Shown here piece after piece: positions 4,389 through 42,776 of a stretch of DNA of 42,916 nucleotides (the stretch's first letter is position 1; each line of letters opens with the position of its first letter). Under the pieces are notes generated by a model, which was given only the letters and a program-made list of their open reading frames with translations, made no database searches and was not told the DNA's origin. Origin of the DNA: Tissierellia bacterium (GTDB lineage Bacteria; Bacillota; Clostridia; Tissierellales; Peptoniphilaceae); assembly GCA_030528125.1 (NCBI GenBank), contig JAUMZM010000009.1:1-42916 (forward strand), in the 5' to 3' direction. The translations under genes and the position numbers were made by a program.

Positions 4389-4543
4389 TTTACCTCTTTT
4401 CACAGATTGAAATTAAAAAATACTATTATTATAACTAAAAATTAAATTTGTCTGTAATTAAACTATATAAAGCTCATTGTTTTTTAACTTTGAACTTTCT
4501 AGCTTAATCCTAACTTTGAAATTATCTTTTTTAAATGGAATAA

Positions 4544-11336: not shown

Positions 11337-11484
11337 AAGTTTCCTTTTTGATAAAATTTTTGATTTATTAATAATTCTTATAACAAATCACGATAATTAC
11401 TAAAATAATTACAACAATTCACCTACTGTAGTCAAGTGTTTTTGTCACCTTTGATATAATTATAACATAGTTATTGTTTGAAAG
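11337..11484 (-). promoter_or_regulatory. Upstream regulatory region of hydEGF
   Basis: This 148-bp AT-rich stretch separates hydE from the next gene's terminator. On the minus strand it contains TATAAT (11459-11464) and, further down, TTGACT (11430-11435) with a weak TAATTA 18 bp on. The octamer ATAATTAC occurs twice on the plus strand at 11393-11400 and 11405-11412, with a 12-bp period. That may be an operator, because it lies just downstream of the TTGACT element. No regulator is identified. Confidence 0.35.
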
Positions 11485-11520
11485 AAAAAATAAGCCCTGT
11501 GATTTTCATCAAGGCTTATT
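11485..11520 (-). terminator. Terminator of the FAD oxidoreductase gene
   Basis: On the minus strand AATAAGCC (11513-11520) pairs with GGCTTATT (11489-11496) and is followed by TTTTTTC. It sits 9 bp after the stop codon of the flavoprotein gene and insulates it from hydE. Confidence 0.75.
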
Positions 11521-11528
11521 AAATATTT

Positions 11529-12902: not shown

Positions 12903-12966
12903 ATACATTGCTCCTTTATTTAATCGTACTAACCTATTATATCAAATATTTATTATTTTGCACGTA

Positions 12967-13016
12967 AAAACTGATCTCATCAGTAGATTTTAACCCAACT
13001 TTTAGAAATCAGTTTT
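12967..13016 (-). terminator. Candidate terminator after serS
   Basis: AAAACTGAT (12967-12975) and ATCAGTTTT (13008-13016) can form a 9-bp stem with a long loop just beyond the serS stop codon. It is weaker than the other terminators because of the 32-nt loop. Confidence 0.45.
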
Positions 13017-13028
13017 AATTAATTAAAA

Positions 13029-14318
13029 TTATTTATTTTTAGGATATATTCTGCTAGCCCCGCCCATATACATTTGAAGTGGCTTAGGTATTTTAACTGA
13101 TCCATCTTCTTGTAGTAAATTTTCTAAAAATGCTATTAACATTCTTGGAGGTGCTACTACTGTATTATTTAAAGTATGAGCTAAATAAGTTCCTTTATCT
13201 CCTCTTAATCTTATCTTAAGTCTTCTTGCTTGAGCATCGCCAAGGTTAGAACATGAACCTACCTCAAAGTATTTTTTCTGTCTTGGTGACCATGCTTCGA
13301 CATCTACTGATTTTACTTTTAAGTCTGCAAGATCTCCTGAGCAACATTCCAATGTTCTTACAGGAATTTCAAGTGATCTAAAGAATTCTACTGTATTTTT
13401 CCATAACTCGTCATAGAATTTCATAGAATCTTCTGGTTTACAAATTATAACCATCTCTTGTTTTTCGAATTGATGTATTCTATAAACTCCTCTTTCCTCA
13501 ATACCATGAGCTCCAACTTCTTTTCTAAAACATGGTGAATATGAAGTCATTTTTAATGGTATTTGATCTTCATCTGTAATTGTATCTATAAACTTACCAA
13601 TCATTGAATGTTCACTTGTTCCTATAAGATATAAATCTTCACCTTCTATCTTATACATCATATTTCCCATTTCAGAAAAACTCATTACACCATTAACTAC
13701 ATCAGATCTTATCATAAATGGTGGAATATAATATTCATATCCTTTGTTTATCATAAAATCTCTCGCATAAGATAGAATTGATGAATGAAGTCTAGCTATA
13801 TCTCCTTTAAGATAATAAAATCCTGTTCCCGATGTATTTCTAGAACTATCCAAATCAATTCCATTAAAGGATTCCATAATATCTACATGATAAGGGATTT
13901 CATAATCTGGAACTTTGTTTTCTCCAAATTTTTCAACTTCAACATTCTCACTATCATCTTTTCCTATTGGAACTGAAGGATCAATCATTTGAGGAATTAT
14001 TTGCATTCTTTCTTTAAGCTCATCTTCTAACTTTCTTGTCTCTTCCTCTAGATCTACAATTCTATTATTTATATTTCCTACTTCTTTCTTAGCATCTTCT
14101 GCTTCATCTTTCTTGCCTTGACCGATTAGAGCTCCTATTTGCTTACTTGCTTTATTTCTTTTTGCTCTTAAATTATCTCCTTCAGTTTTTGCATTTCTTA
14201 ATTTTTCATCGATTTCTATTACTTCATCTACTAAAGGCAATTTTTCATCTTGAAATTTCTTTTTGATATTCTCTTTAACCGCTTCAGGGTTTTCTCTTAC
14301 AAATTTTATATCTAACAT
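13029..14318 (-). CDS. serS: Seryl-tRNA synthetase
   Basis: Charges tRNA-Ser with serine in the cytoplasm. The 429-residue protein has the N-terminal coiled-coil tRNA-binding arm (about 30-105, rich in Lys/Glu heptads). The class II catalytic core follows, with motif 2 FRKEVGAHGIEERGVYRIHQFEKQE and motif 3 near the C-terminus (NTVVAPPRMLIAFLEN). The ATG at 14318 follows TTTTAGGAGGAATT. A longer reading from 14354 would begin inside the T-box terminator and can be dismissed. Expression is controlled by the T-box leader directly upstream. Confidence 0.97.
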   Translation of the reverse strand: MLDIKFVRENPEAVKENIKKKFQDEKLPLVDEVIEIDEKLRNAKTEGDNLRAKRNKASKQIGALIGQGKKDEAEDAKKEVGNINNRIVDLEEETRKLEDELKERMQIIPQMIDPSVPIGKDDSENVEVEKFGENKVPDYEIPYHVDIMESFNGIDLDSSRNTSGTGFYYLKGDIARLHSSILSYARDFMINKGYEYYIPPFMIRSDVVNGVMSFSEMGNMMYKIEGEDLYLIGTSEHSMIGKFIDTITDEDQIPLKMTSYSPCFRKEVGAHGIEERGVYRIHQFEKQEMVIICKPEDSMKFYDELWKNTVEFFRSLEIPVRTLECCSGDLADLKVKSVDVEAWSPRQKKYFEVGSCSNLGDAQARRLKIRLRGDKGTYLAHTLNNTVVAPPRMLIAFLENLLQEDGSVKIPKPLQMYMGGASRIYPKNK

Positions 14319-14334
14319 AATTCCTCCTAAAATT

Positions 14335-14504
14335 AAAAAATCTCCCATCCACAAAGGGACGAGAGTCTCGCGGTGCCACCCAATTTAGCATTGCTCACTT
14401 TTTAAAGAAAAGCTCAAAGACGGATTCATTACTTCCAATTAGAGATTTTCACCAGCCATCTCCTCTCTGTAAATCTTTCATAACTACTACTTCTTATCAT
14501 AGCT
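14335..14504 (-). promoter_or_regulatory. T-box riboswitch, serine type, upstream of serS
   Basis: On the minus strand the leader shows the conserved T-box sequence AATTGGGTGGCACCGCG (antiterminator bulge), complementary to the tRNA acceptor end. It is followed by a terminator stem (TCTCGTCC pairing with the GGATGGGAGA side) and TTTTTT. The stem I apical region GGCTGGTGAAAATCTC is also typical. In the specifier region AATGAATCCGTCTTTGAGC the triplet TCC (14422-14424) is a serine codon, matching the downstream gene. Uncharged tRNA-Ser would pair with it and stabilise the antiterminator, so serS is induced by serine starvation. Confidence 0.92.
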
Positions 14505-14521
14505 TATATCCAATTAATTAA

Positions 14522-14549
14522 ATTTTACCATAAATTAAAATAAATTCAA
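14522..14549 (-). promoter_or_regulatory. Predicted promoter of the T-box/serS transcript
   Basis: TTGAAT (14544-14549) and TAAAAT (14522-14527) on the minus strand with a 16-bp spacer, about 20 bp upstream of the T-box stem I. It abuts the nnrE stop codon. Confidence 0.45.
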
Positions 14550-15206
14550 CTACACAAACTTCTCTATTGCTTTATCTGGAATACTTATATCTTCAACTAC
14601 AACCTTACCTTGAAATAAGTTGTTTTTGGTAAGTCCCACCTTTAATAATTGCATACATACAACAAGATCACTATCTACCATATATCCTAATTTCTTTCCA
14701 GTAGTTGCATCCATTCCAGATGGAATATCTATAGACACTTTATAGATTCTTTTTTCATTTATAAGATCAATTACGTAGGAGTAGACTCCCTTAACTTCTC
14801 TATTTAATCCAGTTCCAAACATTCCATCTATTATGGTATTTACTCTATCGATATTTTTATCCATAAATTCCATATCTGAAATTGATTTTATATTATAAAT
14901 TTGATCTGTTAATTTGGATACTATGTTGTATTCTATCTTAAATTCTTCGCTTGCCTTATCTATATCAGATAGAATATAGATATCTACATCTTTTCCTTTG
15001 GATAAAAGATTTCTTGCAATAGCAAGTCCATCTGCTCCGTTATTTCCAACTCCTACAATTATAGCAAATGTCTGTCTTTGTTTTAAATTCAAGTTTTTTA
15101 TAACAGCCATAGCCGCATGTTCTACAAGTACTATTGATGGAATTTCTAAAACTTTTATAGCGTAATTATCAATTTGTTGCATTGTATCTTTGTCTACACT
15201 TATCAT
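14550..15206 (-). CDS. nnrE: NAD(P)H-hydrate epimerase (YjeF N-terminal domain)
   Basis: Interconverts the R and S forms of damaged NAD(P)H hydrate so that the dehydratase can repair it. The protein of about 218 residues shows the YjeF_N signatures VGVGNNGADGLAIARNL, DGMFGTGLNREVKG and DIPSGMDATTGKKLG. Only the epimerase domain is present, whereas many bacteria fuse it to the NnrD dehydratase (YjeF C-terminal domain), which must be elsewhere or absent. The ATG at 15206 overlaps the dnaI TGA (ATGA). An in-frame start at 15239 would overlap dnaI further. It ends with TAG. Confidence 0.88.
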   Translation of the reverse strand: MISVDKDTMQQIDNYAIKVLEIPSIVLVEHAAMAVIKNLNLKQRQTFAIIVGVGNNGADGLAIARNLLSKGKDVDIYILSDIDKASEEFKIEYNIVSKLTDQIYNIKSISDMEFMDKNIDRVNTIIDGMFGTGLNREVKGVYSYVIDLINEKRIYKVSIDIPSGMDATTGKKLGYMVDSDLVVCMQLLKVGLTKNNLFQGKVVVEDISIPDKAIEKFV

Positions 15207-16165
15207 TTTAATCTCAAATCCTCTCCATATATTTCCCAAAGCTTAAATGTACCAAGAAGCCTTGATAAAATTCTATCTCCATATATTTCACGAAACTCAT
15301 CTAAGTTGTGATTTGAAGAAAATATCATAGCTTTGCCATTTATCATTCTATCATTTATTATCTCAAAGAAATTAGAAATATCCAAATCTCCTCTTATATT
15401 CTCTGCTCCAAGATCATCTACTATCAATAAATCTGTTTTAAATAAAGAATCATATTTTTCTTTTAGCTTTTCTTTGCCTTCTGCAAAAGAATAATAATAA
15501 TCTTGCATAAAAGAAAATAGCTTTGGAGCAGTCCAATAAATCACAGAGTAATTAGAATCCATAAGTTCTTTTGCAATTGAATTAATTAAAAATGTCTTTC
15601 CTCTTCCAACATCTCCAAAAATATAAATATTTCCATTAGAAACTTTAGAAAAATGAGATATATATTCTTTTGCTTCAATTAGAATGTCACTTATATTATC
15701 ATAAGGTGATTCATCATAGTTTTTATATCTGTTTTTAGAATAGAGATTTTTGTTAAAAGTATTGAAATTTTCTCTTCTAAGAACATTTTTCAAATTACTC
15801 ATGTTATATCTTTCTTCTATTATAAGTTGATTTAAACAAGAGCAAATTTTCCCATTTACATAACCTGTGTCTTTACAAAGATTATGATAATATCTTTTCT
15901 TAAGATAATCCTTAGGATATCCATTTGTTACTAGATATTCTTCTTTTCTTTTTATAAGAACATTTATTTTTTCTTCATCTTTACTTGTATCGATATTATC
16001 AAAAACTTTGTTTACTGCATCAAATCCTATGTTTTTTATTTTCTGATCAATTATTCTTATTTCAGGAATCTGTCTATAAATTTTTTCTTTTCTTTGCAGA
16101 TTTTCCCTTTCGATATTTAATTTTCTATTATCAAAAGCTTCTTTTGCTTTTTCATAAACACTCAA
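15203..16165 (-). CDS. dnaI: Primosomal protein DnaI / DnaC-type helicase loader
   Basis: AAA+ ATPase that loads the replicative helicase DnaB onto DNA. The N-terminal part has a cysteine-containing zinc-binding segment (CKDTGYVNGKICSCL). The ATPase domain shows Walker A FGDVGRGKTFLINSIA and Walker B LLIVDDLGAENIRGD, followed by the sensor region MIFSSNHNLDEF and an arginine in GDRILSRLLG. The length of 320 residues suits DnaI. The gene lies directly after dnaD (4-bp overlap) and in the same operon as dnaB, supporting the helicase-loader role. Confidence 0.9.
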   Translation of the reverse strand: MSVYEKAKEAFDNRKLNIERENLQRKEKIYRQIPEIRIIDQKIKNIGFDAVNKVFDNIDTSKDEEKINVLIKRKEEYLVTNGYPKDYLKKRYYHNLCKDTGYVNGKICSCLNQLIIEERYNMSNLKNVLRRENFNTFNKNLYSKNRYKNYDESPYDNISDILIEAKEYISHFSKVSNGNIYIFGDVGRGKTFLINSIAKELMDSNYSVIYWTAPKLFSFMQDYYYSFAEGKEKLKEKYDSLFKTDLLIVDDLGAENIRGDLDISNFFEIINDRMINGKAMIFSSNHNLDEFREIYGDRILSRLLGTFKLWEIYGEDLRLK

Positions 16166-16908
16166 TTAAGATCACCTTGCTTTTTTCGTCTTTCCGCTCT
16201 TTGCTTTCTAAATCTCTCTGTTATGGAATCTCCACTTTCATCATTTGTTTTTGTTGTGGATGTTTTCTTTTTAGTATATTTTTTAGGAGACTTAGAATAA
16301 GAATTATCACTTAATTCATATTCTTTAAGTTCTTTTAGGCTATGTATTCCCTTATCTCTCCAGCTTACAGCAAAAGCTAATGCGTACTTTGGATCTACAT
16401 TGCCCTTTTTTTCTTTTGCCTGTTTAAAAGCTTCTGTTATTAGTTCTGGAGCAATGTTAATATCATCCATTGTCTCATTTATTCTAGTTATCTCTGCTGG
16501 AGTTAGACTTCTTTTTATAATATCTTCTATGTTATTGAACATAGACATTGATCTATCTATTATATCTTTATTATTAGTCTCTTCAGTTTCATTAGTCTCT
16601 CCACCAAAATACGCTTGTCTTAGGGAATTTATCTCATAAAACTCATTTCCATAATTATATTTCTTTATACTTATAAGATTATAATTTCTAAGAGTTTCAA
16701 TAGCTTCTTCTATTGATTTTTTATCAACATTGAAAAAGCCTGCCATCTGATACAAATCAATATCTTCTGTGTCATTTGCTTTTTTTACCATCAACAAAAA
16801 AACTTTTAGGCTTAATTCATCAAGAAGTCTCATAAAACTATTTATAAACATATTTTCAATTGGAGTAGAACCCATATCAAGTTTCATCTTTTCAATTTTA
16901 ACTTTCAA
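16162..16908 (-). CDS. DnaD-domain replication initiation protein
   Basis: Primosome protein of 248 residues. The N-terminal half is a winged-helix-like region (about 20-100). The C-terminal half holds the DnaB_2/DnaD domain, seen in LTPAEITRINETMDDINIAPELI, ALAFAVSWRDKGIHSLKELK, followed by a charged tail that may bind DNA. The likely start is TTG at 16908: GAGAGG lies 6 nt before it, while the first ATG (16887) has no ribosome binding site. It overlaps the GNAT gene by 11 bp and dnaI by 4 bp. Together with dnaI and dnaB it forms a replication-restart and initiation module. Confidence 0.85.
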   Translation of the reverse strand: MKVKIEKMKLDMGSTPIENMFINSFMRLLDELSLKVFLLMVKKANDTEDIDLYQMAGFFNVDKKSIEEAIETLRNYNLISIKKYNYGNEFYEINSLRQAYFGGETNETEETNNKDIIDRSMSMFNNIEDIIKRSLTPAEITRINETMDDINIAPELITEAFKQAKEKKGNVDPKYALAFAVSWRDKGIHSLKELKEYELSDNSYSKSPKKYTKKKTSTTKTNDESGDSITERFRKQRAERRKKQGDLN

Positions 16909-17485
16909 TTTTATCCTCTCTTTTCAATACCATTTTATAAATTTTTGAATAAATTACAGAATTGATTTCTTCAAAATTCGATGGATCTAATTCTATATTT
17001 TGATTTTCAAAAACTTCTATATCTTCGCCAACTATTTCAAATCCAAGTTTCTTATAAAGATTAAGTGCTCTTTGATTAAATGTATTAACATCAAGTGTCA
17101 TTTCAACAAATCCAAGCTCATTAAAATAATAGTTTAAGAAAGCTTTCATAGCTTCATATCCATATCCTTTGCCAACATATTGTGGAGAAAATACTATTCC
17201 TAATTTGCTTGTCTTTTTAAAAACTTTTATTCCTTTTATTCCTATAAATCCTATGAATTTATCTTCTTTTTTTTCATAAACTGCAAAATACTTTTTCCTA
17301 AGTGCATTTACTGAATTTATCCAAATTCTAGCATCAAAACTTGTAAAATTTCCGTAATTATAGCCTTTCAAAAGAGGAGTTTCAAAATTTCCCCATTCAC
17401 TAAATTTAAGAGCATCTGAAAACTCTATATTTTTAATATAAATTCTTTTTGTTTCTGCTATATAATTATTGTTGTTCTTCTTCAT
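16898..17485 (-). CDS. GNAT family N-acetyltransferase (RimJ/RimL type)
   Basis: The 195-residue protein has the GNAT fold: TKRIYIKNIEFSDALKFSEW at the start, the acetyl-CoA-binding segment LGIVFSPQYVGKGYGYEAMKAFL (Q/RxxGxG/A type), and VNTFNQRALNLYKKLGFEIVGE at the end. That pattern is typical of RimJ/RimL-like acetyltransferases acting on protein N-termini or small amines. The substrate is unknown. It is wedged between dnaB (20-bp overlap) and dnaD (11-bp overlap), so it is certainly cotranscribed with replication genes, but nothing else links it to replication. Confidence 0.82.
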   Translation of the reverse strand: MKKNNNNYIAETKRIYIKNIEFSDALKFSEWGNFETPLLKGYNYGNFTSFDARIWINSVNALRKKYFAVYEKKEDKFIGFIGIKGIKVFKKTSKLGIVFSPQYVGKGYGYEAMKAFLNYYFNELGFVEMTLDVNTFNQRALNLYKKLGFEIVGEDIEVFENQNIELDPSNFEEINSVIYSKIYKMVLKREDKIES

Positions 17486-18800
17486 TTGTAAGATCTCTAA
17501 ATGTTGTTATTCTCTTATCAAAAAATAACTTTATCATTCCTGTAGGGCCATTTCTGTGTTTTGCAATAATGACTTGAGCTCTATCAGGGTCTTTTTGTTC
17601 ATCATAGTAATCTTCTCTATATAATAACATTACAACATCTGCATCTTGTTCTATCGCTCCTGATTCTCTCAAATCAGATAATATCGGCTTATGATCGCTT
17701 CTTTTATCTGCTTCTCTTGAAAGCTGAGCTAAAGATAATACAGGACAATCTAACTCTTTTGATAAAGCTTTTAGTCCTCTAGATATTGTGGCTATTTCTT
17801 GCTGTCTGTTTTCTGTTCTATTTTCTACTGTCATAAGCTGAAGATAATCTATAACTATAAGATCTAATCCATGCTCAGCCTTCATTCTCTTAGCTTTGCT
17901 TCTAAGCTCAGATAGTGAGATTCCTGCAGTTTCATCTACGAATAAATCCTTGCTTCGTATCTCTTTTGCAGCATCTATTATATAGCTCCAATTACTATCT
18001 TCTATATTTCCTGTTATTACATTTTTTAAGTCAACCATAGATACCATAGCTAGTAGTCTTTGTGTAAGTTGGTATCTACTCATTTCTAAAGAAAAAAACG
18101 CAACTCTTTTTCCAATTTGTGCAGCATTCCATGCAATACTAAGACCCAATGCAGTCTTTCCCATAGCAGGTCTTGCCGCTAATAGTATAAGCTCTGATGA
18201 TTGTAATCCTGAAAGAGCTTTATCTATTGTTCCTATACCTGTTGAAACTCCAGTAATTCTCCCTTGATTATTAGCAAGTTCATTAAGCTTTGTCAATGTT
18301 TCTTGCATAACATCTGCTACTCTTACAAGTCCTTTGTTATTGGATTGCTGAGTTATTTCAAAAATCTCATTTTCTGCATTTTCAACTATCTTTGATATGT
18401 CTTCTTTTTGAAGATATGATTTTTCCATTATATCTTCACTCGCAGAAATAAGTTGTCTTAAAAGAGATTTTTCTTTTATAGTCTTTGCATATTGATCTAC
18501 ATTTGTAGTATAAAAGGAGGAAAGACTTATCTCTGTTAGATATTCCATTCCTCCTATTTCATCCAAGATATTCTTATCAGATAATTTAACTTGCAATGTA
18601 TTGATGTCAATTTTTATATCTTTTCTATACATTTCAAGACAAACATCATAAATTATCTTATTTCTTCCATCATAAAAATCTCTTGGTTTTACTATATTAA
18701 TTATCTGATCTAATACATCATTCTTCTTTAGAACTGACCCAATTACAGCCATCTCAGATTCTATCGATTGAGGTGGTTTTTTATAATCAGATTCAACCAT
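17466..18800 (-). CDS. dnaB: Replicative DNA helicase DnaB
   Basis: Hexameric helicase that unwinds DNA at the replication fork (DnaC in Bacillus nomenclature). The N-terminal DnaB domain is recognisable (PPQSIESEMAVIGSVL, about residues 8-22). The RecA-like domain contains Walker A AARPAMGKTALGLSIA, Walker B LIVIDYLQLM, SLAQLSREADKRSDHKP and the C-terminal AKHRNGPTGMIKLFFD motif. The length of 444 residues is standard. It follows rplI with a 1-bp overlap, the classical rplI-dnaB order, and no intein is present. Confidence 0.97.
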   Translation of the reverse strand: MVESDYKKPPQSIESEMAVIGSVLKKNDVLDQIINIVKPRDFYDGRNKIIYDVCLEMYRKDIKIDINTLQVKLSDKNILDEIGGMEYLTEISLSSFYTTNVDQYAKTIKEKSLLRQLISASEDIMEKSYLQKEDISKIVENAENEIFEITQQSNNKGLVRVADVMQETLTKLNELANNQGRITGVSTGIGTIDKALSGLQSSELILLAARPAMGKTALGLSIAWNAAQIGKRVAFFSLEMSRYQLTQRLLAMVSMVDLKNVITGNIEDSNWSYIIDAAKEIRSKDLFVDETAGISLSELRSKAKRMKAEHGLDLIVIDYLQLMTVENRTENRQQEIATISRGLKALSKELDCPVLSLAQLSREADKRSDHKPILSDLRESGAIEQDADVVMLLYREDYYDEQKDPDRAQVIIAKHRNGPTGMIKLFFDKRITTFRDLTNEEEQQ

Positions 18801-32791: not shown

Positions 32792-34519
32792 TTATTTTCC
32801 TTTTGATTCTTTCTGATACATACTGTAATATACGCCTTTTTGTTCAACTAAGCTATCATGATTTCCTCGTTCTATGATATTTCCATGATCAAGAACTATT
32901 ATTTGATCACAAAAATGTATCGTAGAAAGTCTATGAGCAATTATGATTGTTGTCCTATCTTTACTCATTTGAAATACAGCCTTTTGAATCAAGCTTTCAG
33001 TTGCAGTATCAATATTTGCAGTTGCCTCATCTAATATTAATATCTTAGGATTTGTGACATAGGCTCTTGCAAAAGAAATTATTTGCTTTTCACCTTGTGA
33101 TAAGCCTATTCCTCCATCTTTTATCAAAGTATCTATTCCATCTTTGTGATGATTTAGAATTATATCTCCTCCAACATCTTTTAGTGCGGCTATTGCCCTT
33201 TCTCTTGAGATATCTTTTCCCATAACTATATTATCAAATATAGTTCCTTTGAATAATTGAGCATCCTGAAGCACTATTGAGATATATGATCTAAGAGAGC
33301 CTCTACTTACACTTGATATATCAACTCCATCAATTGTTATCTTACCTTTTTCTAAATCATAGAATCTCATAAGTAGATTCATCATAGTGGACTTACCACT
33401 TCCGGTCTGTCCCACAAACGCAAGAGATGTCCCACTATCTACCTTGAAACTTATATCCTTTAAAACATCATTTCTATCATAGGCAAATGTAACATCTTTA
33501 AATTCTATCTCACCATTCATTTCAGAAAGCTTATCATCGCTATCTTTTTCTTCTTCTATGTCAAATAATTCTGCAAGATGCACTGCAGATCCCAAGGATC
33601 TTTGAACTGATGAAAGCACGAACATTATCTGTTGCAAATTTCTTAAAAATGAAGTCATATAGTTAACTACTATATAAATACTTCCTACAGCTATTGGAAT
33701 ACCAGAAAGATATCTTCTACCAGCATAAGCTAATATTATAAGAGTAGTTGTTTTTGTAAAGACCCCTGTCACATTGAAAGCATTGTATGCGAAAAGCTTA
33801 GTCATCTTTACTCCATACTTAAAGTTGTTTTCGTTAATCTCTTGAAAATCATCAAATGAATGCTTACTATCATTAAAAGCTTGTATTATTTCCATATTCT
33901 TTATGTCTTCATTTATGGTAGCATTCATATTAGAAATATATCCTCTTGACTTTGTAGAAAACAAGAAACTCTTTTTTATAAAATCAGAGTAAGCAAGATA
34001 CATAAATGGCATAAGTATCAATACTATAAATATAGCTTTCCAATCGATAAGAATACTTGCTATAATATAACCTACCGCTTGAAATGCAGGACTTATCATT
34101 CTTGTAAATATTGCAGAAAACATCTCTTTCATTTGCTTTGTATCAGATGTTATTCTTGCTGTAACTTTGCCTGCTGGAAGATTATCATAATATTTCATAG
34201 GAAGATTTTCGACATGTGTATAAAGATCTCTTCTTATATCTCTTGAAATTTTTCCAGTTATTGATTCAAACTTAACCATAAGAACATAATTTGAAATGGC
34301 TTGAATAAATAAAGCTATTGCAAAAAACAAAACCATATAGATAAGCTTTTTATAGATAAAATCATCCGTTACAACTTCATTTATAATTTTTCCAGAGATA
34401 TATGGCCCTATTAATGCCGAGAGAGTAGATATCAAAAGAAGAATAAATCCTATGAAAATATCTTTCTTATAATTTTTAGAATATCTGAAAAATCTTATAA
34501 AAATCTCTTTGTTTTTCAT
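32792..34519 (-). CDS. Multidrug-type ABC exporter half-transporter, canonical ATPase half (BmrD-like)
   Basis: The 575-residue half-transporter has six membrane helices (about 15-310) fused to an ATPase domain with Walker A GQTGSGKST, the signature LSQGEKQIISFARA, Walker B ILILDEATANID with the catalytic Glu, and H-loop IAHRLS. Its signature departs from LSGGQ (Ser-Gln for the first Gly). The partner upstream carries the opposite pair of defects, so together they form a heterodimer with one working ATP site (BmrC/BmrD or LmrC/LmrD type). It overlaps the partner gene by 4 bp (ATGA). The substrate is unknown; drug or lipid export is usual. Confidence 0.85.
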   Translation of the reverse strand: MKNKEIFIRFFRYSKNYKKDIFIGFILLLISTLSALIGPYISGKIINEVVTDDFIYKKLIYMVLFFAIALFIQAISNYVLMVKFESITGKISRDIRRDLYTHVENLPMKYYDNLPAGKVTARITSDTKQMKEMFSAIFTRMISPAFQAVGYIIASILIDWKAIFIVLILMPFMYLAYSDFIKKSFLFSTKSRGYISNMNATINEDIKNMEIIQAFNDSKHSFDDFQEINENNFKYGVKMTKLFAYNAFNVTGVFTKTTTLIILAYAGRRYLSGIPIAVGSIYIVVNYMTSFLRNLQQIMFVLSSVQRSLGSAVHLAELFDIEEEKDSDDKLSEMNGEIEFKDVTFAYDRNDVLKDISFKVDSGTSLAFVGQTGSGKSTMMNLLMRFYDLEKGKITIDGVDISSVSRGSLRSYISIVLQDAQLFKGTIFDNIVMGKDISRERAIAALKDVGGDIILNHHKDGIDTLIKDGGIGLSQGEKQIISFARAYVTNPKILILDEATANIDTATESLIQKAVFQMSKDRTTIIIAHRLSTIHFCDQIIVLDHGNIIERGNHDSLVEQKGVYYSMYQKESKGK

Positions 34520-36231
34520 TGTTCTAACCTCTGTCTTCTAAATTCTCTACTATACCAACCATCAAGTTCCAAAAGCTCATCATGGGTTCCCATTTCTTTA
34601 ATTCTCCCATCTTCTAGAACAATTATATTATCAGCATCCATTACTTGGCTTATTCTATGAGTTACTATTATAGTAGTCTTGTTATCTCTTATTCTTTCTA
34701 GATTAGAAAGAATCTTTCCTTCAGTCTTTCTATCTACAGCAGAAAGAGCATCATCTAATACTAATATATCAGGATCTTTTATAATAGCTCTTGAGATTGC
34801 GAGTCTTTGCTTTTGACCACCAGAAAGAGAAACTCCATTTTCTCCTGTAAGAGTATCAAAACCTTCTGGAAAATCTATTATATCATTATAGAAATCTGCG
34901 TTTTTGGTAGAATCAATAACTTCATCTTTTGATGCATTTCTATTACCTCTTTTGATGTTATCTTCTATCGACTCAGAGAAAATCATGTGATCTTGACTTA
35001 CATATCCTATAAGATCTCTTACAGAATTTATGTCATAATCGTTTAGATTCCTATTATCCAAAAGAATACTATTATCTTTTATAGGATAAAACCTTAGTAA
35101 CTGTTTAATTAAAGTAGTCTTTCCACTTGCAGTTTTGCCTAAAATTCCAATCTTTTGTCCATGTTTTATTTCAAAATTCAAATTCTTTAAAATATAATCA
35201 GACTTAGGATATCTAAAAGAAAAATCATTAAATTTTATAGAAGCTTTTGATGGTGCTTTAATCTTTCCAGAAACCATTATGTCCTTATCTTCTACAAGTT
35301 CATCTTGTCTTTTGGCAGCTGCAATTCCACTTGCACGAGTTGATATAAAATCCCCGATAGACATCATTGGATATTGTAATTCATTAAGGTAACCTGTAAC
35401 AGTAGCCAAAGCTCCAACCGTTAGATTTCCCTGTATAATCATATATCCACCATATAAAAGAGCAACTGAATACATCAAAGCTCTAGTTATAATTGAAAAG
35501 AACGAGAATAGAGCATTTGTCTTCATAAGATCCAAATCTTTTTGATATAACTCTTGAGTTTTCTGATCAAAATTATCGCTTCTTATTCCTTGATTATTAT
35601 ATGCCCTTATAACTCTTATACCTTCTACAGTTTCTAGTACATCCTCATTTAACTTATCATAAGACTCTTGAGCCTTCTTCCACTTATAATTGATCTTTTT
35701 AGTTAAAATATTGCTAGATATCAAAAGTATAACAAGACTTAAAGAAGAAAATAAAGTAAACTTAAATCCTGCAATCATAATAATAGCAATAAAATAAAAG
35801 AGAGGATACAAAGTAGAATCAAAGAAACTCATCATTCCAAAACCAGCAAGATTATTAAGACTTGTAACATCATCTGTTGCACGAGTTAGAACAGTTCCAG
35901 ATGAAAACTTTTCAAAAAAATAAGGACTAGAATTTAAAATCTTATTTACAACACGTTCTCTTGACATAAAGCAAATTACATCACTTGCCTTAAAGAAAAT
36001 ATATCCCCAAACATAACAAGCTATATAATCTAATACTATTACAAGACCGAAAGTAAAAGTAATCATTCTTAAATTTTCAAAAGTTAGATTATTATTTGTT
36101 ATAAGATCTATAACCCTACCTAGAGCATAACCAGGATATAACATAAAAATATAATCTAATATGATCGCAATAGCTCCTATAATATATTTAAACTTATACT
36201 TATCAAAAAAATACCTTAAATTCTTTATCAT
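34516..36231 (-). CDS. Multidrug-type ABC exporter half-transporter, degenerate ATPase half (BmrC-like)
   Basis: A half-transporter of about 571 residues with six membrane helices. Its ATPase domain has Walker A GKTASGKTTL, signature LSGGQKQRLAI and H-loop VTHRIS. Walker B reads DILVLDDALSAVD, with Asp in place of the catalytic Glu, as in one half of asymmetric exporters. The ATG at 36231 has GGGGAG just upstream. A longer reading from 36360 would run through the terminator at 36321-36359 and is rejected. It is translated together with the next gene through a 4-bp overlap. Confidence 0.87.
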   Translation of the reverse strand: MIKNLRYFFDKYKFKYIIGAIAIILDYIFMLYPGYALGRVIDLITNNNLTFENLRMITFTFGLVIVLDYIACYVWGYIFFKASDVICFMSRERVVNKILNSSPYFFEKFSSGTVLTRATDDVTSLNNLAGFGMMSFFDSTLYPLFYFIAIIMIAGFKFTLFSSLSLVILLISSNILTKKINYKWKKAQESYDKLNEDVLETVEGIRVIRAYNNQGIRSDNFDQKTQELYQKDLDLMKTNALFSFFSIITRALMYSVALLYGGYMIIQGNLTVGALATVTGYLNELQYPMMSIGDFISTRASGIAAAKRQDELVEDKDIMVSGKIKAPSKASIKFNDFSFRYPKSDYILKNLNFEIKHGQKIGILGKTASGKTTLIKQLLRFYPIKDNSILLDNRNLNDYDINSVRDLIGYVSQDHMIFSESIEDNIKRGNRNASKDEVIDSTKNADFYNDIIDFPEGFDTLTGENGVSLSGGQKQRLAISRAIIKDPDILVLDDALSAVDRKTEGKILSNLERIRDNKTTIIVTHRISQVMDADNIIVLEDGRIKEMGTHDELLELDGWYSREFRRQRLEQ

Positions 36232-36320
36232 AACTCTCCCCTTCACATAGAATACTTTACCATTTTTACAAAATAAATCATATAGTATTTTAATATGAAA
36301 ACAAAAAATAAAATCAAAAA

Positions 36321-36359
36321 GAAAATGGATGCCAATTGTAAAATACAAATTGACATCCA
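36321..36359 (-). terminator. Terminator of the YcaO/RiPP operon
   Basis: On the minus strand TGGATGTCAATTT pairs with AATTGGCATCCA (arms 36347-36359 and 36326-36337), followed by TTTTC. It lies about 80 bp after the last exporter gene of the peptide cluster and separates it from the next ABC operon. Confidence 0.75.
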
Positions 36360-36440
36360 AGATTAAATAAATTTGATTAATAATATTTATGATTTTTCAT
36401 ACATATTTCGAAAATATTAAAATATTATTTATATAATTAT

Positions 36441-38204
36441 TTAATTTTCATACCACTTCGATTGTAACTTCCACATAGAATAATACTTACCTCTTTTTTC
36501 AATCAATTGATCATGAGTTCCACTTTCTATAATTTTCCCTTTTTCAATTACAATAATTCTATCAGCAAATTTAACAGAACCCAAGCGATGAGTTACAATA
36601 ATTGCACTTTTATTTTTAACAATTTCTCCAAATTGTTGATACAACTTCGATTCCTCTAAAGGATCAATTGAAGCAGTAGGTTCATCTAATATTATAAATT
36701 TATTTTTTCTAAAAATACTCCTAGCAATAGCAAGTCTTTGCCGTTGCCCTAATGATAAATCAATTCCTCCAAATTCTGGAGATAAAATAGTATTAAGATT
36801 AGCATTTTCATTCTTAAATTCTGTTTTGGTTAATGAGTTTTTTATTTTTCTAATATTACCTTTATCTTTAATATCGCTTATATATACATTTTCTTTTAGT
36901 GTTAATTTATATTTTTGAAAATTTTGAAATACAGCAGAGATATTATTATAATTTATTTTATTTGAGCCATTATAAATAATGTCATCTCCAATTCTTACGC
37001 TACCATCAGTAGGTAAATAAAGTCCTGCTAAAATTTTAACCAATGTTGTTTTTCCACTACCATTTTCTCCTACAATAGCAACCGTTTCATTTGGTTTAAT
37101 TTGTAAAGATATATTTGAAATAGCATAATTATCTGTACCAGGATATTTGAAATAAACATTATCCAAAATGATCCCCTTAGAAAAATCCTTGTAATTATTA
37201 TTAACATCCACTTCTTTCATATCCATTATGTTATAAAAATTTAAAACTTGTGCAAAAACTTCACTCAAATTTCCAAAATGTGAAGATATTAATTCATTCA
37301 TTATTGAAAAAATATCTGACAATGAAGTAAATATTGCTACAAACATTCCAATACTTATTTTTCTTGAAATTAATTGTAAAAATAAAATATATATAGAAAT
37401 ACCTAGTCCAATAAAAGTTAAAATATCTAAAAGAACTTCATAAAAAGATAATTTCTTTTCTAATTTCCATCTTTTATCTGTAAGTAGAAATAATGAATCA
37501 ACAAATAGATTATAGAAATAATTATAAGCACCTAGCATTCTTGTTTCCTTATAAAAATGAATATAAACTATACTTTTTTTATAAGAATCACAGCGTCTTC
37601 TTTCAGGAGCTAATATTTCTTCAAGATTTACAAAATATTTTGCCCTAATAATTTGATTAATTAATGCAGGAATGAAACCTAAAAAAAGAACCATAATAAG
37701 AATTGGCGATACTTTATATAAATACTTACACATCAATATTAAATATACTAAATAATAAGTAATAGTTTGTAAACAAATTGATGCAAAATGACCAAGATTT
37801 TCATATTCCAGGCATTCTTTAGACTTTTCTAAGTTATCTAAAAATTTTGGATCTTCAAAATAAATTGCTGGCAACCTAGCTAATTTTTTTTGAAAATCTA
37901 CCATGAATTTTCCCATATTCGTATAAGAAACTTTATTGAAAAGATATTGTCCAATTCCATTTATTATCTGCCTTAAAATTACAATCATAGTCAAAATTAA
38001 AATACTGTAAGCAATTTGATCAAAACTGCTTGAATTGGTTACATTATCAAAAAGTTTTTTTGTAGCAATAATTTCAAACATTGCAAGAAATGCACGAAAA
38101 ACAGCAATAGATTGCTCTAATACACCCCAAAAATGAGATTTTGAAAAATACTGAATACTATTTCTTATAATAATATAAAAGTATGTTTTTTTAGATTTCA
38201 TCAT
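36441..38204 (-). CDS. ABC exporter (second exporter of the YcaO/RiPP cluster)
   Basis: A full half-transporter of about 587 residues with hydrophobic helices (about 20-320) and an ATPase domain. It has Walker A GENGSGKTTLVKIL, signature LSLGQRQRLAIARS, Walker B FIILDEPTASID and H-loop VTHRLGSV. There is no C39 peptidase domain, so it would export but not cleave a peptide. The start is probably one of two adjacent ATGs (38204 or 38201), since an ATG at 38213 overlaps the previous stop. AAAGGA lies upstream. It is intact, unlike its upstream homologue, with which it may have formed a heterodimer. It is the last gene before the terminator. Confidence 0.82.
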   Translation of the reverse strand: MMKSKKTYFYIIIRNSIQYFSKSHFWGVLEQSIAVFRAFLAMFEIIATKKLFDNVTNSSSFDQIAYSILILTMIVILRQIINGIGQYLFNKVSYTNMGKFMVDFQKKLARLPAIYFEDPKFLDNLEKSKECLEYENLGHFASICLQTITYYLVYLILMCKYLYKVSPILIMVLFLGFIPALINQIIRAKYFVNLEEILAPERRRCDSYKKSIVYIHFYKETRMLGAYNYFYNLFVDSLFLLTDKRWKLEKKLSFYEVLLDILTFIGLGISIYILFLQLISRKISIGMFVAIFTSLSDIFSIMNELISSHFGNLSEVFAQVLNFYNIMDMKEVDVNNNYKDFSKGIILDNVYFKYPGTDNYAISNISLQIKPNETVAIVGENGSGKTTLVKILAGLYLPTDGSVRIGDDIIYNGSNKINYNNISAVFQNFQKYKLTLKENVYISDIKDKGNIRKIKNSLTKTEFKNENANLNTILSPEFGGIDLSLGQRQRLAIARSIFRKNKFIILDEPTASIDPLEESKLYQQFGEIVKNKSAIIVTHRLGSVKFADRIIVIEKGKIIESGTHDQLIEKRGKYYSMWKLQSKWYEN

Positions 38205-40034
38205 ATATACCATTTCCTTTGTTCTGAAAACATTTTAGAGTATATTCCATCTAATTTCATTAATTTTTTATGATTTCCTTTTTCAACTATAACACCTTTA
38301 TCAAATACAAAAATTTCATCCGCTAATTTTGTAGATCCCAAGCGATGACTTATAAAAATAGCTGTATTTTTATATGATATGTCTTTAAATTGTTTATATA
38401 GTTTGTTTTCAGAAATTGGATCTAAAGAAGATGTAGGCTCATCTAAAATTTTTACTGGAGCATTACTTACAATAGATCGAGCAATAGCAATTTTCTGCCA
38501 TTCTCCTCCTGAAATCTCAATTCCTTGTTCATAAATTTTTCCTAAATTAGTATCATAACCAGATGGTAACTTATTTACAAAGTCATAAAGTCCAACTTTA
38601 TTAACTACCTCTTTTATTTCATCTATATTTAATTTTTTCCTAAATTACCTAAGTTAATATTATCTCTAATAGATATCTCATAGCAAGAAAAATCTTGATA
38701 AATTACAGAAAAAAGAGATTTTAGTGTAGCTTGATTGAAACTTCTTATATCTTTACCGTCAATTAAAATTTCTCCTTCATATTCACTATAAAGACCTGTT
38801 AAAAGTTTAGTAACTGTACTTTTCCCAGCACCATTTGAACCTACAAATGCATAATGTTTCCCATTCTCAATTGTAAATGAAACTCCATTCAATACATTAT
38901 TTTCACTATTTGGATATTTAAAATAAACATTTTTAAACTCTATCTTTTTAAAATTTATTGGTAATTTATTAGCAATATCAGTAGCATCATTTATGGAATC
39001 CATTAAAATAATATCCGTAAGTCCATCCATATATTCTCTTGCTTCTCCAATATTTCTAGTTGCATCTTGAAATTGCCATCCCAAAATTTTTGACATACCT
39101 ATAAGTGCTGTAACAATTCCTGTAAATACTCCTGGAGTAATATTGCCAGATATAAGAGGATTTATCAAGCTTAATGATGTAATCATTGTTATAATCATAA
39201 AAGATACACTTGTAAGTTTCGTTAAAAAACGTGTTTTTAATAGAACTTTAAGTTGTATTTTACTAGATTTATCAAACTTTTCGTAGTATCTATCATTTAT
39301 ATCGTCTGTATATTCGAAAAGTATTTTTTCATATACTGAATTTCTATTACATAATATATCATCCGAATAATAGCTATAAATCATTTCATATTTTCTAGTA
39401 TCAACTTTTGCAAGATAATTTTTTCTCCCAGCCCATAAAGAAACTATAATAAGTGGAATTGAAAAGATTAAAATCAAAAGCGAAACCCACCAAATTTTTT
39501 TTATTAAAATAATTATAATTGAGCTAATTCCAATAATACTGCGAATAATTGTTAAATAAGACTCTAAACAATCTATAAAAGTCTCTTCCATCTCATCTGA
39601 CACAATTCCAATTGTTTCTTGATAATTAGAATTTTCTATATAAGAATATTTTACTTTAGCTTCAATTTCAATAATAGAAGGCAATAAAGCATTTTCTATG
39701 ATGTATTTTATTTTTGATAGAATAAGTGTATATAAATTTTCAATTATAATTATAAAACCTATAATAGCAATCAAAATAAAAAGTGCTAAATAAATATTTG
39801 AAAAACTCTTATATCCCCTATAAATTAATATAACCGTATCAACAAAATATCCGGTAGAAATAGCCATAATAGAAGTAGGGATAAGACCATCTAATATTTC
39901 TAAAATAAATAAAAATATTAAATGAAAAGGTGCTAACTCATAAATTATCTTAACTATGTCAAAAGCTTTATATTTTTTTTCTTAAACTGAAATTTCTCTT
40001 TATCTGATTGAAAACTTACTTTTTTAGTGTGCAT
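38201..40034 (-). pseudogene. ABC exporter of the YcaO/RiPP cluster, broken by two frameshifts in A tracts
   Basis: A reading of about 611 residues can be restored across three frames. An ATG at 40034 overlaps the YcaO stop and opens MHTKKVSFQSDKEKFQF. At an A8 run (39973-39980) the frame must shift to join KAFDIVKIIYELAPFHL and the membrane domain. At an A6 run (38633-38638) the frame shifts again, just after Walker A (GSNGAGKST) and the Q-loop, to reach signature ISGGEWQKIAIARS, Walker B VKILDEPTSSLD, H-loop ISHRLGS and the stop at 38201. Both breaks need one extra A. Taken literally, the largest piece (38629-39867) lacks signature and Walker B and is inactive. Sequencing error or slippage are alternatives. 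Confidence 0.82.
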
Positions 40035-41631
40035 ACTTTCCCATAAAAAGTTCTTCATATTTCGTCTTTCTGTTGCTATATCCACAATTTATACCGAAAT
40101 TAAACATTCTATCACTAGCTGATATTAACGGTATGTTCATTTGTTGGAAATCACCAGTAATTATAGTTCTAACAATTTTTACATCCATTCCATGTTTAGT
40201 CATATCAACATATAAAACATCACCATTAACTTTTTCGCTTATTAATTTCGATAATTTTTTAATACATTGGTATGAACTAGTAACATCCTCAAACAAGTTT
40301 TTTACATCATTTATTTTATTTGTTTTCCCAAATATATCTTTATTTACTAGATAATGTTGATTATATATATTTGTTAAACTTTCATCTAATACTTTTAGAG
40401 TTATCATATCTGAATCTATTTCTCCTCCAGTATCGGACCAATCATCAACTTGAACCGCTTCAGTTATAGATCTCTCTAGTGCTAGTTCACCATATACATG
40501 GCAACCAAGTCCATTATATGCATATCTTAAATAATCGTTTTTATTTAAAATCCATGTCCTATAAGTTGGAATTCCTAAATCTGTAGTATAATCTCTAGTT
40601 ACAATATCATATCCTTTTTCCTTTATTTTATAAATTATTTCTTTAAGTTTTGTATTAGTAATCGTATCATAGTTTATAATTGGCATTATATATGGATTTG
40701 ACTGACATATTAACCAAGAATCTCTTTCAACAGCTTCCAATAAAGCATGAAGAGTTGCATCTTCTAAAGTAATTCCAATAGCTGCTCCGCTTGAAGTTAT
40801 TGGGAAAAACATCCCTTTTAATTCTACATCATACATAAATACAAGAAATGCAGGTACTAATATATTTTTATTTGTTATTAGTGACTTTGAAACAACCCAG
40901 TCTATTTCCGCATCCTCATCAAATTCATCAAATTCAGTATTTTTATTTCTTATTGAGTTTATAATTTTTGATAAATCAATTGAATAATCTCTCACATCTT
41001 TATATTTAGCAGATATTATAGGAATATTTCCAGAATACTCCAATCCAGCATGCTCTAATAATTCAAATCCTGCTGAAAAATATGATTGTTGTCTAGTAAT
41101 TCCTTTTTCTGCCCCATAATTTTTCCTAAATAAGAATCTATTATTTGAATTATATGTTTGTTCAATAAATGAATTAAAACAATGAATTATATTATTATCA
41201 CTAAAAGGATTTCCTATAGCTTCTTCAATCTTAACGTTTGTTCCAAATTTACCCAATTCTTTATCTAAAATTACTTTTGTTTCATCAGAAGATAAAGATC
41301 TAAATCCTCCAGTCTTATACTTTATTTCTCTATCTATAAATTTTTCATTATTTAAATTCAAATTATCATTTAATAAATAATCAATGCTCATATATTTTGG
41401 ATTAAAGTTTATATATTTATTATTTATTCCATGGCAAAAATTACAATAAGTTGTAGGCAGAATAGTTTCAGTTTCAACTTTTAATTTTCTTCTTTCATAA
41501 AAATATCTATGATCCAAAAACTGTGAATTATTCCCTTTGATCATATCTATTATGTCATCAATTACAATAGATATTATAAAATTTATTTTATCATTAGAAA
41601 GCTCATTATTTATTTCATAACTATAGTTCAA
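40024..41631 (-). CDS. YcaO-domain protein (cyclodehydratase-type), C-terminal part of a split protein
   Basis: YcaO enzymes use ATP to activate peptide amides, forming azolines or related modifications. The YcaO ATP-binding motifs are clear: SSGAAIGITLEDATLHALLE followed by AVERDSW, and GLGCHVYGELALERSITEAVQVDDW. The first 100 residues are not YcaO but the end of an E1-like domain, closing with PTTYCNFCHG (CxxC). The reading frame continues upstream without a break to TAG at 41701-41703 and beyond. The only start before the domain, TTG at 41631, has no ribosome binding site. The C-terminus (ELFMGKYAH) lacks the PxPxP tail of azoline-forming YcaOs, so the chemistry is open. Confidence 0.8.
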   Translation of the reverse strand: MNYSYEINNELSNDKINFIISIVIDDIIDMIKGNNSQFLDHRYFYERRKLKVETETILPTTYCNFCHGINNKYINFNPKYMSIDYLLNDNLNLNNEKFIDREIKYKTGGFRSLSSDETKVILDKELGKFGTNVKIEEAIGNPFSDNNIIHCFNSFIEQTYNSNNRFLFRKNYGAEKGITRQQSYFSAGFELLEHAGLEYSGNIPIISAKYKDVRDYSIDLSKIINSIRNKNTEFDEFDEDAEIDWVVSKSLITNKNILVPAFLVFMYDVELKGMFFPITSSGAAIGITLEDATLHALLEAVERDSWLICQSNPYIMPIINYDTITNTKLKEIIYKIKEKGYDIVTRDYTTDLGIPTYRTWILNKNDYLRYAYNGLGCHVYGELALERSITEAVQVDDWSDTGGEIDSDMITLKVLDESLTNIYNQHYLVNKDIFGKTNKINDVKNLFEDVTSSYQCIKKLSKLISEKVNGDVLYVDMTKHGMDVKIVRTIITGDFQQMNIPLISASDRMFNFGINCGYSNRKTKYEELFMGKYAH

Positions 41632-41700
41632 ATTAATAATATCTTTTAAATCTATTTTATAATTAAATTCTAATTTTGAATTTAAGAGTTTTAGTTCATG

Positions 41701-42282
41701 CTACAATATACATTCTAAACATGCTGTTTCTCCAGGAATTACAAATGGTCCAGCAATAATTTTTAATCCATCAAAATATATCGGAATAAAAGGTTTTTTC
41801 ATATTATATAACTGTTTATTTATTCTGATTAAATCGCCATAAGAAATTTTAGATGGAGAAAATATTGCAAAATCATAGTCATATACATAATTATTTTTAA
41901 CGAAATCTTTTAAAAATATATAACTTATATTTTTTTTCTTAATATTTTCAAAAATAGCATCATCACCTATAACTACTATTTTTTTATCGTTAACTGATTC
42001 CTCTTGATTTTTTTCTACTTTTATTAATATGTCTTCTTCTAGAAGAACATCTAAAAATTCTTTTATATCTTTTATATAAAATTTATCACTCAAATTATTT
42101 TCAATCTCTTTAAATGTTCGTATTCCATCTACATAGCTAAATACACATGAAAGTATGTTTGGATCACAATTTAAAATTTTTATTTCTCCATTGGAGGTAC
42201 ATATAACTCTTCCTCTTTTTTTATCTTTAACTTGTGAGTAATTTGAATTTATTATTGCAATATCATTCGGTCTATAAAGCAT
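41701..42282 (-). CDS. Leader-binding RRE/E1-like protein, N-terminal part of the split YcaO fusion
   Basis: 193 codons ending in TAG. Residues about 1-90 fit a PqqD-like winged-helix peptide-recognition element (ILSCVFSYVDGIRTFKEIE, FLDVLLEEDILIKV). The rest is an E1/ThiF-like segment (KKIVVIGDDAIFENI) ending GPFVIPGETACLECIL. In TOMM biosynthesis that GETACxxC motif is half of a zinc site and normally continues into a helix and a second CxxC. Here the continuation is found in the same frame just past the TAG, as the start of the YcaO reading frame. The full protein would be about 752 residues. The ATG has AGAGGT 9 nt upstream. As it stands the protein should not bind zinc. Confidence 0.75.
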   Translation of the reverse strand: MLYRPNDIAIINSNYSQVKDKKRGRVICTSNGEIKILNCDPNILSCVFSYVDGIRTFKEIENNLSDKFYIKDIKEFLDVLLEEDILIKVEKNQEESVNDKKIVVIGDDAIFENIKKKNISYIFLKDFVKNNYVYDYDFAIFSPSKISYGDLIRINKQLYNMKKPFIPIYFDGLKIIAGPFVIPGETACLECIL

Positions 42283-42307
42283 AACGTCTTACCTCTTTTT
42301 TTGTAGT

Positions 42308-42341
42308 AAATCAACCTAATATCTAGATATTAGGTTGATTT
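42308..42341. repeat. Perfect 34-bp palindrome between the small peptide ORF and the YcaO operon genes
   Basis: AATCAACCTAATATC and its exact reverse complement meet at a TA centre, extended by one A/T pair at the ends. Transcribed, it forms a long AU-rich hairpin without a following U tract (TTTACTAC), so it is a poor terminator. It may act as a processing or attenuation site that raises expression of the upstream peptide over the enzymes, as seen downstream of precursor genes in other RiPP operons. As DNA it could bind a dimeric regulator. Confidence 0.8.
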
Positions 42342-42361
42342 GAGTAATGTTTCATCTCTAA

Positions 42362-42451
42362 TTAAAAATCTTTTGAATTTAATCTTTCTTTCCCTTTTGC
42401 TGTTGGTTTTACTACTTTAGGTTTTTTTACTTTTATTATAGAAATTTTCAT
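42362..42451 (-). CDS. 29-residue lysine-rich peptide, candidate RiPP precursor
   Basis: A short ORF, too small for routine gene calling, reading MKISIIKVKKPKVVK and then PTAKGKERLNSKDF. It has 9 Lys, one Arg and no Cys. Only Ser4, Thr17 and Ser26 could be cyclised. An excellent ribosome binding site, GGAAGTGA, precedes the ATG, and a near-consensus promoter lies 60 bp upstream. It is the first gene of the operon, followed by the palindrome and the leader-binding/YcaO genes, the usual place of a precursor gene. A longer start (ATG at 42466) is in frame but overlaps the ribosome binding site. It could be a real precursor, a degenerate one, or a leader peptide. Confidence 0.55.
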   Translation of the reverse strand: MKISIIKVKKPKVVKPTAKGKERLNSKDF

Positions 42452-42510
42452 AGAAATCACTTCCATTGTAATTTATTAAATAAATTTATCCTTATAAACC
42501 TCTTTAATAA

Positions 42511-42539
42511 ATTATAATATATTTCTGTGTTGAAATCAA
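42511..42539 (-). promoter_or_regulatory. Predicted sigma-A promoter of the peptide/YcaO operon
   Basis: On the minus strand TTGATT (42534-42539) and a perfect TATAAT (42511-42516) are separated by exactly 17 bp. Transcription would start near 42504, about 53 nt before the peptide ATG. It is the strongest-looking promoter in the window. Confidence 0.65.
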
Positions 42540-42644
42540 ATTTTTAGTAAAGATAAAATATATTAAATTCTATACTATTGTATAAATTAATCTAGTAGAA
42601 TATTTACTTTCCTTTTTATATAGCTTAGAAGATGTTATCTAATT

Positions 42645-42776
42645 TTAATTGATATCAATAATGATTGAATCTATCAATCTAATATCTAAATCTTTATTAG
42701 GAAATATTCTAATTGCTTTTTCCCGTCTTTCAACTTCTTTGTTAAGTCTTTCTATATATTTTACTATTACAGGATG
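42645..42776 (-). pseudogene. Relic of an IS256-family (mutator) transposase, C-terminal fragment
   Basis: The open stretch reads YIERLNKEVERREKAIRIFPN and then KDLDIRLIDSIIIDIN before a stop. The segment ERLNxExxRRxKxIxIFPN is typical of the C-terminal part of IS256-type transposases. There is a stop codon directly upstream (42777-42779), no start codon and no catalytic DDE region, so only about 43 codons survive. No terminal inverted repeats could be identified. It marks past mobile-element activity at the edge of the peptide cluster. Confidence 0.72.

Follow-up and report, generated by a model that had tools for sequence, protein, structure and literature searches.

The cyanobactin CD-fusions MusD, TruD, and LynD carry a recognition element for ribosomally synthesized and post-translationally modified peptides (RiPPs), termed the RiPP recognition element (RRE), together with an E1-like zinc domain and a YcaO domain in one chain. 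A flavin mononucleotide (FMN) dehydrogenase is required only for azoles. The cores of thiazole/oxazole-modified microcins (TOMMs) contain 45-65% Gly, Cys, Ser, and Thr (PMC4603692), and a PxPxP motif at the YcaO C-terminus is associated with azoline formers (PMC12338566). Here we examine an operon encoding a similar fusion on a 42,916-nucleotide contig (JAUMZM010000009.1; hereafter the window) from a Tissierellia bacterium of the Peptoniphilaceae. An earlier reading of this DNA (the original prediction) had proposed a YcaO-type RiPP operon with a candidate 29-residue precursor, and all of the features that it named lie on the minus strand of the window. The gene set is well above chance expectation, and it includes a YcaO domain with ATP-site motifs, a conserved short precursor gene beside the enzyme, and an RRE fold. 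The explanation that we favor, with reasonable confidence, is that of a horizontally acquired, recently inactivated YcaO RiPP operon. Its principal features are as follows (ORF, open reading frame; aa, amino acids; ABC, ATP-binding cassette).

42362..42451 (-), precursor ORF of 29 aa, MKISIIKVKKPKVVKPTAKGKERLNSKDF (listed ORF; related peptides in the same place in loci L042, L045, and L043)
42308..42341 (-), perfect hairpin with a 15-bp stem between the precursor and enzyme genes (fold -16.5 kcal/mol, z -7.4)
40024..42282 (-), single interrupted gene of 752 codons for the fused RRE, E1-like, and YcaO parts (end-to-end alignment with the intact 745-751 aa proteins of L042, L045, and L043)
41998..42282 (-), N-terminal RRE domain (AlphaFold2 fold and structural matches)
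41701..41703 (-), in-frame TAG separating one CxxC half of the E1 zinc site from the other (sequence and alignment)
40027..41106 (-), YcaO domain (PF02624, E 5e-47)
38201..40034 (-), ABC exporter half 1 with two frameshifts (frame changes in tblastn with the L042 exporter ABC1; pieces of 41% and 54% identity)
39973..39980 (-), A8 run at which exporter half 1 changes frame (same tblastn comparison)
38633..38638 (-), A6 run at the second frame change of exporter half 1 (same tblastn comparison)
36441..38213 (-), intact ABC exporter half 2 of 590 aa (45% identity to L042 ABC2 over 589 aa)
42648..42776 (-), C-terminal transposase remnant of IS256/Mutator type, at the contig end and immediately upstream of the operon (PF00872, E 5.5e-7, profile positions 337-371 of 379)

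Five loci were compared, namely the window and four others obtained by family-level hidden Markov model searches together with an alignment-based scan. The enzymes of these four loci share the same RRE-E1-YcaO fusion and are 32-46% identical to that of the window. Tissierella simiarum MSJ-40 (L042, the same locus as L044) encodes an enzyme 46% identical to the window enzyme, and a 7-kb contig in a metagenome-assembled genome (MAG) of 'Ca. Tetragenococcus pullicola' (L045), which could be misbinned, encodes one that is 46% identical to the window enzyme and 87% identical to that of Tissierella. An intact 751-aa enzyme with 32% identity is present in a genome of the same phylum as the window (L043), and the fourth enzyme, from a Clostridiales MAG (L046), has 33% identity. 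Gene order is identical in the window, L042, and L045 (peptide, hairpin, enzyme, exporter 1, exporter 2), with the genes intact in the latter two; between L042 and the window, identity is 46% for E1-YcaO, 41-54% for ABC1, and 45% for ABC2. The alignment-based scan recovered L044-L046 from genome contigs and gave no match in viral contigs, and there was also no match in phage records. A YcaO-only query found no close relatives in genome or viral contigs, and a DNA pattern for the core GGSQNGNEQK discussed below found none in viral contigs. A plasmid search returned distant enzymes only, mostly proteobacterial, cyanobacterial, and actinobacterial, and the other fused enzymes that were found have ~22-25% identity. 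No further copy was present in other genomes of the genus and family of L043, or of the families of L045 and L046, and the sample therefore consists of the five loci.

A peptide of 25-30 codons lies upstream of the fused enzyme gene in each related locus. The sequences are MKITVVKEQKEQLVKPLGGSQNGNEQKYTN in L042, MQINVVKEQKEQVAKPFGGSQNGNEQKKK in L045, and MTIAIISENQPSTTSINNSDHHRIC in L043, where the start is GTG and is preceded by the Shine-Dalgarno sequence GGGAGG; in L046, the initial Met is followed by a stop at codon 2 and then by ISVVAEKLRETASVTASCCHVGEVGE. The N-terminus M-x-I-x-[VI]-[VI] is common to the window, L042, L045, and L043, and it is still legible behind the in-frame stop of L046. 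After the start codon, x-I-x-[VI]-[VI] occurs in only 0.5-1.5% of shuffled upstream regions per locus, although these percentages are optimistic because the pattern was picked after the peptides were seen. In a test that is independent of the motif, none of 5000 shuffles aligned as well as the window and L042 peptides do (p < 0.0002). Moreover, the sole differences between L042 and L045 in the core GGSQNGNEQK are two synonymous changes, which points to selection acting on this segment. The idea that the 29-residue ORF arose by chance, the true precursor lying elsewhere, draws on its Lys-rich composition, weak candidate core, and moderate Shine-Dalgarno sequence. We regard this as highly improbable, however, and as largely refuted by conservation, since position, length, and N-terminal motif recur in the other loci and no other candidate ORF in the stretch upstream of the enzyme matches. 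On these comparisons the ORF is very likely the precursor of the operon, even though the window peptide has no match among Pfam or NCBIfam models. The original prediction had made its case depend on finding the small ORF next to homologous YcaO genes, and its core claim stands because a related short ORF occupies the same place beside orthologous YcaO genes.

The enzyme gene requires a different description from that given originally, in which E1-like and YcaO frames overlapped. There is no overlap; the listed ORFs at 41701-42282 and 40024-41631 belong to one reading frame that is interrupted by the TAG and resumes as an open frame at 41700, and the intact 745-751 aa homologues read straight through this position. 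We also considered, and rejected, a natural division of E1 and YcaO into two genes, because the stop splits the zinc site in two rather than falling at the C/D junction and because three relatives are intact fusions. The zinc cysteines (C187, C190, C282, and C285) are invariant in the five loci, with CLEC upstream and CxFC downstream of the TAG in the window. Assignment of the N-terminal part as RRE/E1-like, as first proposed, is borne out by the match to the NCBIfam SagC model (E 7e-9, 35.8 bits against a cut-off of 187.65) and by the predicted RRE fold. Residues 1-95 have the order bbb-aaa in the AlphaFold2 model, with a predicted local distance difference test score (pLDDT) of 84.8, and RREs are defined by this order (PMC12710340). 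Among structures, it matches the PbtF RRE best (Z 11.1, 2.1 Å over 82 residues), and the fold is shared with TruD and LynD (Foldseek probability 1.00); binding of the leader by this fold is a prediction. An AlphaFold2 model of the full fusion, built from three sequences, was poor (pLDDT 35.8) and was not used. The YcaO core aligns with MusD, which is the best solved relative (E 1e-34), with archaeal MJ1094, and with TruD and LynD, and the ATP-site stretches GvtleDai..E..E and ALERSiTEAvQ align with those of MusD, TruD, and LynD. The NCBIfam SagD model also matches (E 1e-36, 126.4 bits against a cut-off of 219.25). The C-terminal PxPxP motif is missing in all five loci, the proteins ending instead in Y[AQP]H (MGKYAH, MGDYQH, MGNYQH, LGRYPH, and MGPYPH).

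In its intact form, the operon would produce a precursor of 25-30 residues in excess over the enzymes. The hairpin after the precursor gene may terminate or stabilize most transcripts and thereby set the peptide:enzyme ratio; a strong hairpin follows the peptide gene in all five loci (z -4.4 to -10.8), with sequences that differ between loci, and the window example agrees with the 34-bp palindrome of the original prediction. The extreme N-terminus of the precursor would add a beta strand to the RRE, the E1-like zinc domain would hold the peptide, and the YcaO domain would activate, at the expense of ATP, a backbone amide of the short core at the C-terminus. A single azoline, or at most two, at the few Ser/Thr residues seems the likeliest product, and it would be left unoxidized because a dehydrogenase is absent; the chief competing product is an amidine derived from an amine. 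Secretion would then fall to a heterodimeric ABC exporter that has no peptidase domain. There is no dehydrogenase, protease, or TfuA among the window operon genes, no dehydrogenase in the L042 and L045 operons, and no TfuA, as would be expected for a thioamidated RiPP (YcaO-TfuA), among the operon genes of L042.

The chemistry of the operon is nevertheless unsettled, and the label of thiazole/oxazole peptide is not established. The PxPxP motif and the dehydrogenase are absent, and Cys is lacking from the intact Tissierella-type peptides, in which Ser residues may number as few as one. Of the features of TOMMs and linear azol(in)e-containing peptides (LAPs), a C protein (E1-like, with a zinc tetracysteine) is found with a D protein, interrupted by the TAG in the window, whereas the PxPxP end, a Gly/Cys/Ser/Thr-rich core, and an FMN dehydrogenase are not. 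The suspicion, in the original prediction, of a modification other than classical azole formation is strengthened by the Cys-free peptides of the two intact loci closest to the window and by enzymes that lack PxPxP. The window core also has no Cys, and T17 and S26 are its only Ser/Thr residues. Ser20 is the only Ser in the whole L045 peptide, which lacks Thr and Cys altogether, and a Ser/Thr/Cys heterocycle in this peptide could therefore form only at that residue. This composition and the absence of PxPxP in five loci are consistent with a YcaO that employs an amine nucleophile (a peptide Lys, the N-terminus, or ammonia) and thereby introduces an amidine or imidazoline into a core that has no Cys. 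Known amine-using YcaOs are mostly stand-alone, however, and one core Ser is conserved between L042 and L045. Amine nucleophiles are established for the YcaO enzymes of bottromycin, amidine peptides, and daptides (PMC12338566, PMC8442711), but clusters that form azolines usually pair YcaO with an E1-like C protein, in many cases as a fusion (PMC4603692), and we consider amine chemistry a tentative proposal with the balance of evidence tilted away from it.

Comparison with described systems sets the family apart in several respects. Although it shares the one-chain architecture of the cyanobactin enzymes, it has no PxPxP end and no protease or dehydrogenase in the operon, and its precursors carry the motif at their very N-terminus and measure 25-30 aa, compared to ~100 aa in cyanobactins (PMC4603692). 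Like the SagC/SagD cytolysin family and TOMM/LAP clusters, it combines a peptide, a YcaO enzyme, and ABC exporters, and the SagC and SagD models match; however, the window scores lie below the cut-offs, the core is not Cys/Ser/Thr-rich, C and D are fused, and SagB is missing. Mobilisins (Cox et al. 2015, PMC4603692), compared by description only, similarly pair a fused cyclodehydratase with a neighboring short peptide poor in Cys, Ser, and Thr, but they come from actinobacteria and include a B protein (dehydrogenase). YcaO enzymes of bottromycin, amidine peptides, and daptides likewise act on substrates without a Cys/Ser/Thr-rich core, yet bottromycin-type YcaOs act without a C protein and DapY retains PxPxP (PMC4603692, PMC12338566), whereas RRE-E1 is fused to YcaO and PxPxP is absent in all five loci considered here. 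This fusion also distinguishes them from stand-alone YcaO systems.

Three lesions are found within 5.9 kb of the operon, whereas the remaining 36.3 kb of the window is 94% covered by uninterrupted genes and holds 128 further A/T runs of at least six nucleotides with no lesion. The nonsense codon would cut the enzyme within its zinc site, and the two frameshifts, which spread exporter 1 over three frames, would leave half of the exporter disrupted, and the pathway is therefore probably dead or silent in this strain. Two ABC exporters without a peptidase domain had been reported in the original prediction; a Pfam scan indeed finds no C39 domain in either, but the upstream exporter, the start ATG of which overlaps the enzyme stop codon, is frameshifted twice. 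The second exporter is intact (Pfam ABC_tran and a weak ABC_membrane match), as are the precursor, the hairpin, and the ATP-site motifs. The suggestion that the precursor might be degenerate therefore applies to the operon, with its broken enzyme and exporter genes, rather than to the precursor itself, which remains readable. The fused enzyme is found in the window genome only among 130 genomes of the family (129 others are without it), and this genome (1.8 Mb, 93 contigs) has one YcaO. Taken together, the lesions, the undamaged remainder of the window, the IS256 remnant, and the absence from 129 relatives indicate that the operon is probably a mobile copy that has been recently inactivated. 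Its G+C content is 24.8%, compared to 29.1% for the surroundings.

Several observations weigh against this explanation. Two of the three lesions lie in homopolymers, so that assembly error is possible; deviations at conserved residues number 35/170 in the window enzyme and 32/167 in the intact Tissierella copy, which is no excess and implies either that the lesions are very recent or that at least one is an assembly error; and TTG 41631 offers a conceivable restart for a YcaO fragment, although no Shine-Dalgarno sequence is visible there. In addition, no Ser of the window core aligns with the single core Ser of the relatives. The first two points, and the intact precursor, hairpin, and second exporter, might mean that the operon is functional in the window organism, the lesions being sequencing or assembly errors, or being overcome by read-through of the TAG and by slippage at the A8 and A6 runs. 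We think this unlikely, given the concentration of lesions in the operon. Moreover, the stop is a substitution and cannot be put down to a homopolymer error, TAG serves as an ordinary stop codon here (3/37 genes), the A6 run is short for slippage, and the distant homologue L046 carries its own, independent damage to peptide and enzyme (3267-5736 on the plus strand, with the peptide stop at codon 2, a frame problem at the enzyme start, and an in-frame TAA at 5062-5064). Reassignment of TAG was rejected as unsupported, given its use to end those neighboring genes.

Directly beside the Tissierella operon, at 10930-17831 (minus strand) of L042, are Tn7-like tnsB/tnsC/tnsD genes (TnsB-like, TnsC/TniB-like, and TnsD split over two ORFs), in a region of 25.8% G+C compared to 36.3% for the operon. 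The Tissierella RiPP operon may be cargo of this Tn7-like element.

L043 and L046 form a sister branch with a different setting. In L046, genes for a FecCD permease, an ATPase, and Peripla_BP_2 lie directly upstream of the peptide, the core of which contains CCH. In L043, two radical S-adenosylmethionine (SAM) proteins flank the enzyme, the peptide core ends in DHHRIC, and a gene at 4503-5873 (minus strand) beside the YcaO and radical SAM cluster joins a LytTR DNA-binding domain to Peripla_BP_2 (BtuF/siderophore-type); its product is possibly a cytoplasmic sensor of metal chelates. The His/Cys cores and neighboring metal-chelate genes suggest a metallophore role in this branch only. Extending it to the whole peptide family, so that the modified core would chelate metal and be recaptured by FecCD/BtuF-type transporters, appears improbable, since the window, L042, and L045 operons have no such uptake genes and their cores have neither Cys nor His.

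A literature search on YcaO metallophores and on Tissierella RiPPs gave nothing on this peptide family. It is conceivable, although we advance the idea as speculation, that the five loci represent an undescribed minimal RiPP class in which precursors of 25-30 residues are read by the RRE through their first six residues, a fusion without PxPxP carries out a non-azoline amide modification in Cys-free cores, and the sister branch has turned to metallophore production under a fusion of DNA-binding and metal-chelate-binding domains. Picking precursors by Cys/Ser/Thr content, as in surveys (PMC4603692), would miss this family. A substrate with one serine, a recognition end of six residues, and one fused enzyme would make up an unusually small, testable YcaO system, with which to learn what amide is activated by an enzyme lacking PxPxP and what nucleophile that enzyme uses. 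Through the sister loci, this enzyme family is linked to the transport and sensing of metal chelates, and the window copy probably shows the early decay of a mobile RiPP operon, the precursor of which can still be read.

Candidate signals for expression of the operon are as follows.

42511..42539 (-), promoter-like TTGATT-17-TATAAT (plausible by position only)
42458..42464 (-), Shine-Dalgarno-like GGAAGTG, moderate (direct reading)
~36326..36359 (-), rho-independent-type terminator hairpin followed by a T-rich tract (fold -16.2 kcal/mol, z -5.0)

The promoter sequence exists as originally described, but matches of its quality are about as frequent in this AT-rich stretch as chance predicts (68 observed against 57.2 +/- 8.3 expected). 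The ribosome-binding site, which had been called strong, is only moderate, and those of the relatives are stronger. The terminator was correctly identified. Directly downstream of it lies a second pair of ABC exporter halves, both intact (32792-36258, minus strand), and a T-box leader (Rfam RF00230) is located at 14352-14509 (minus strand), upstream of a serine-tRNA ligase gene.

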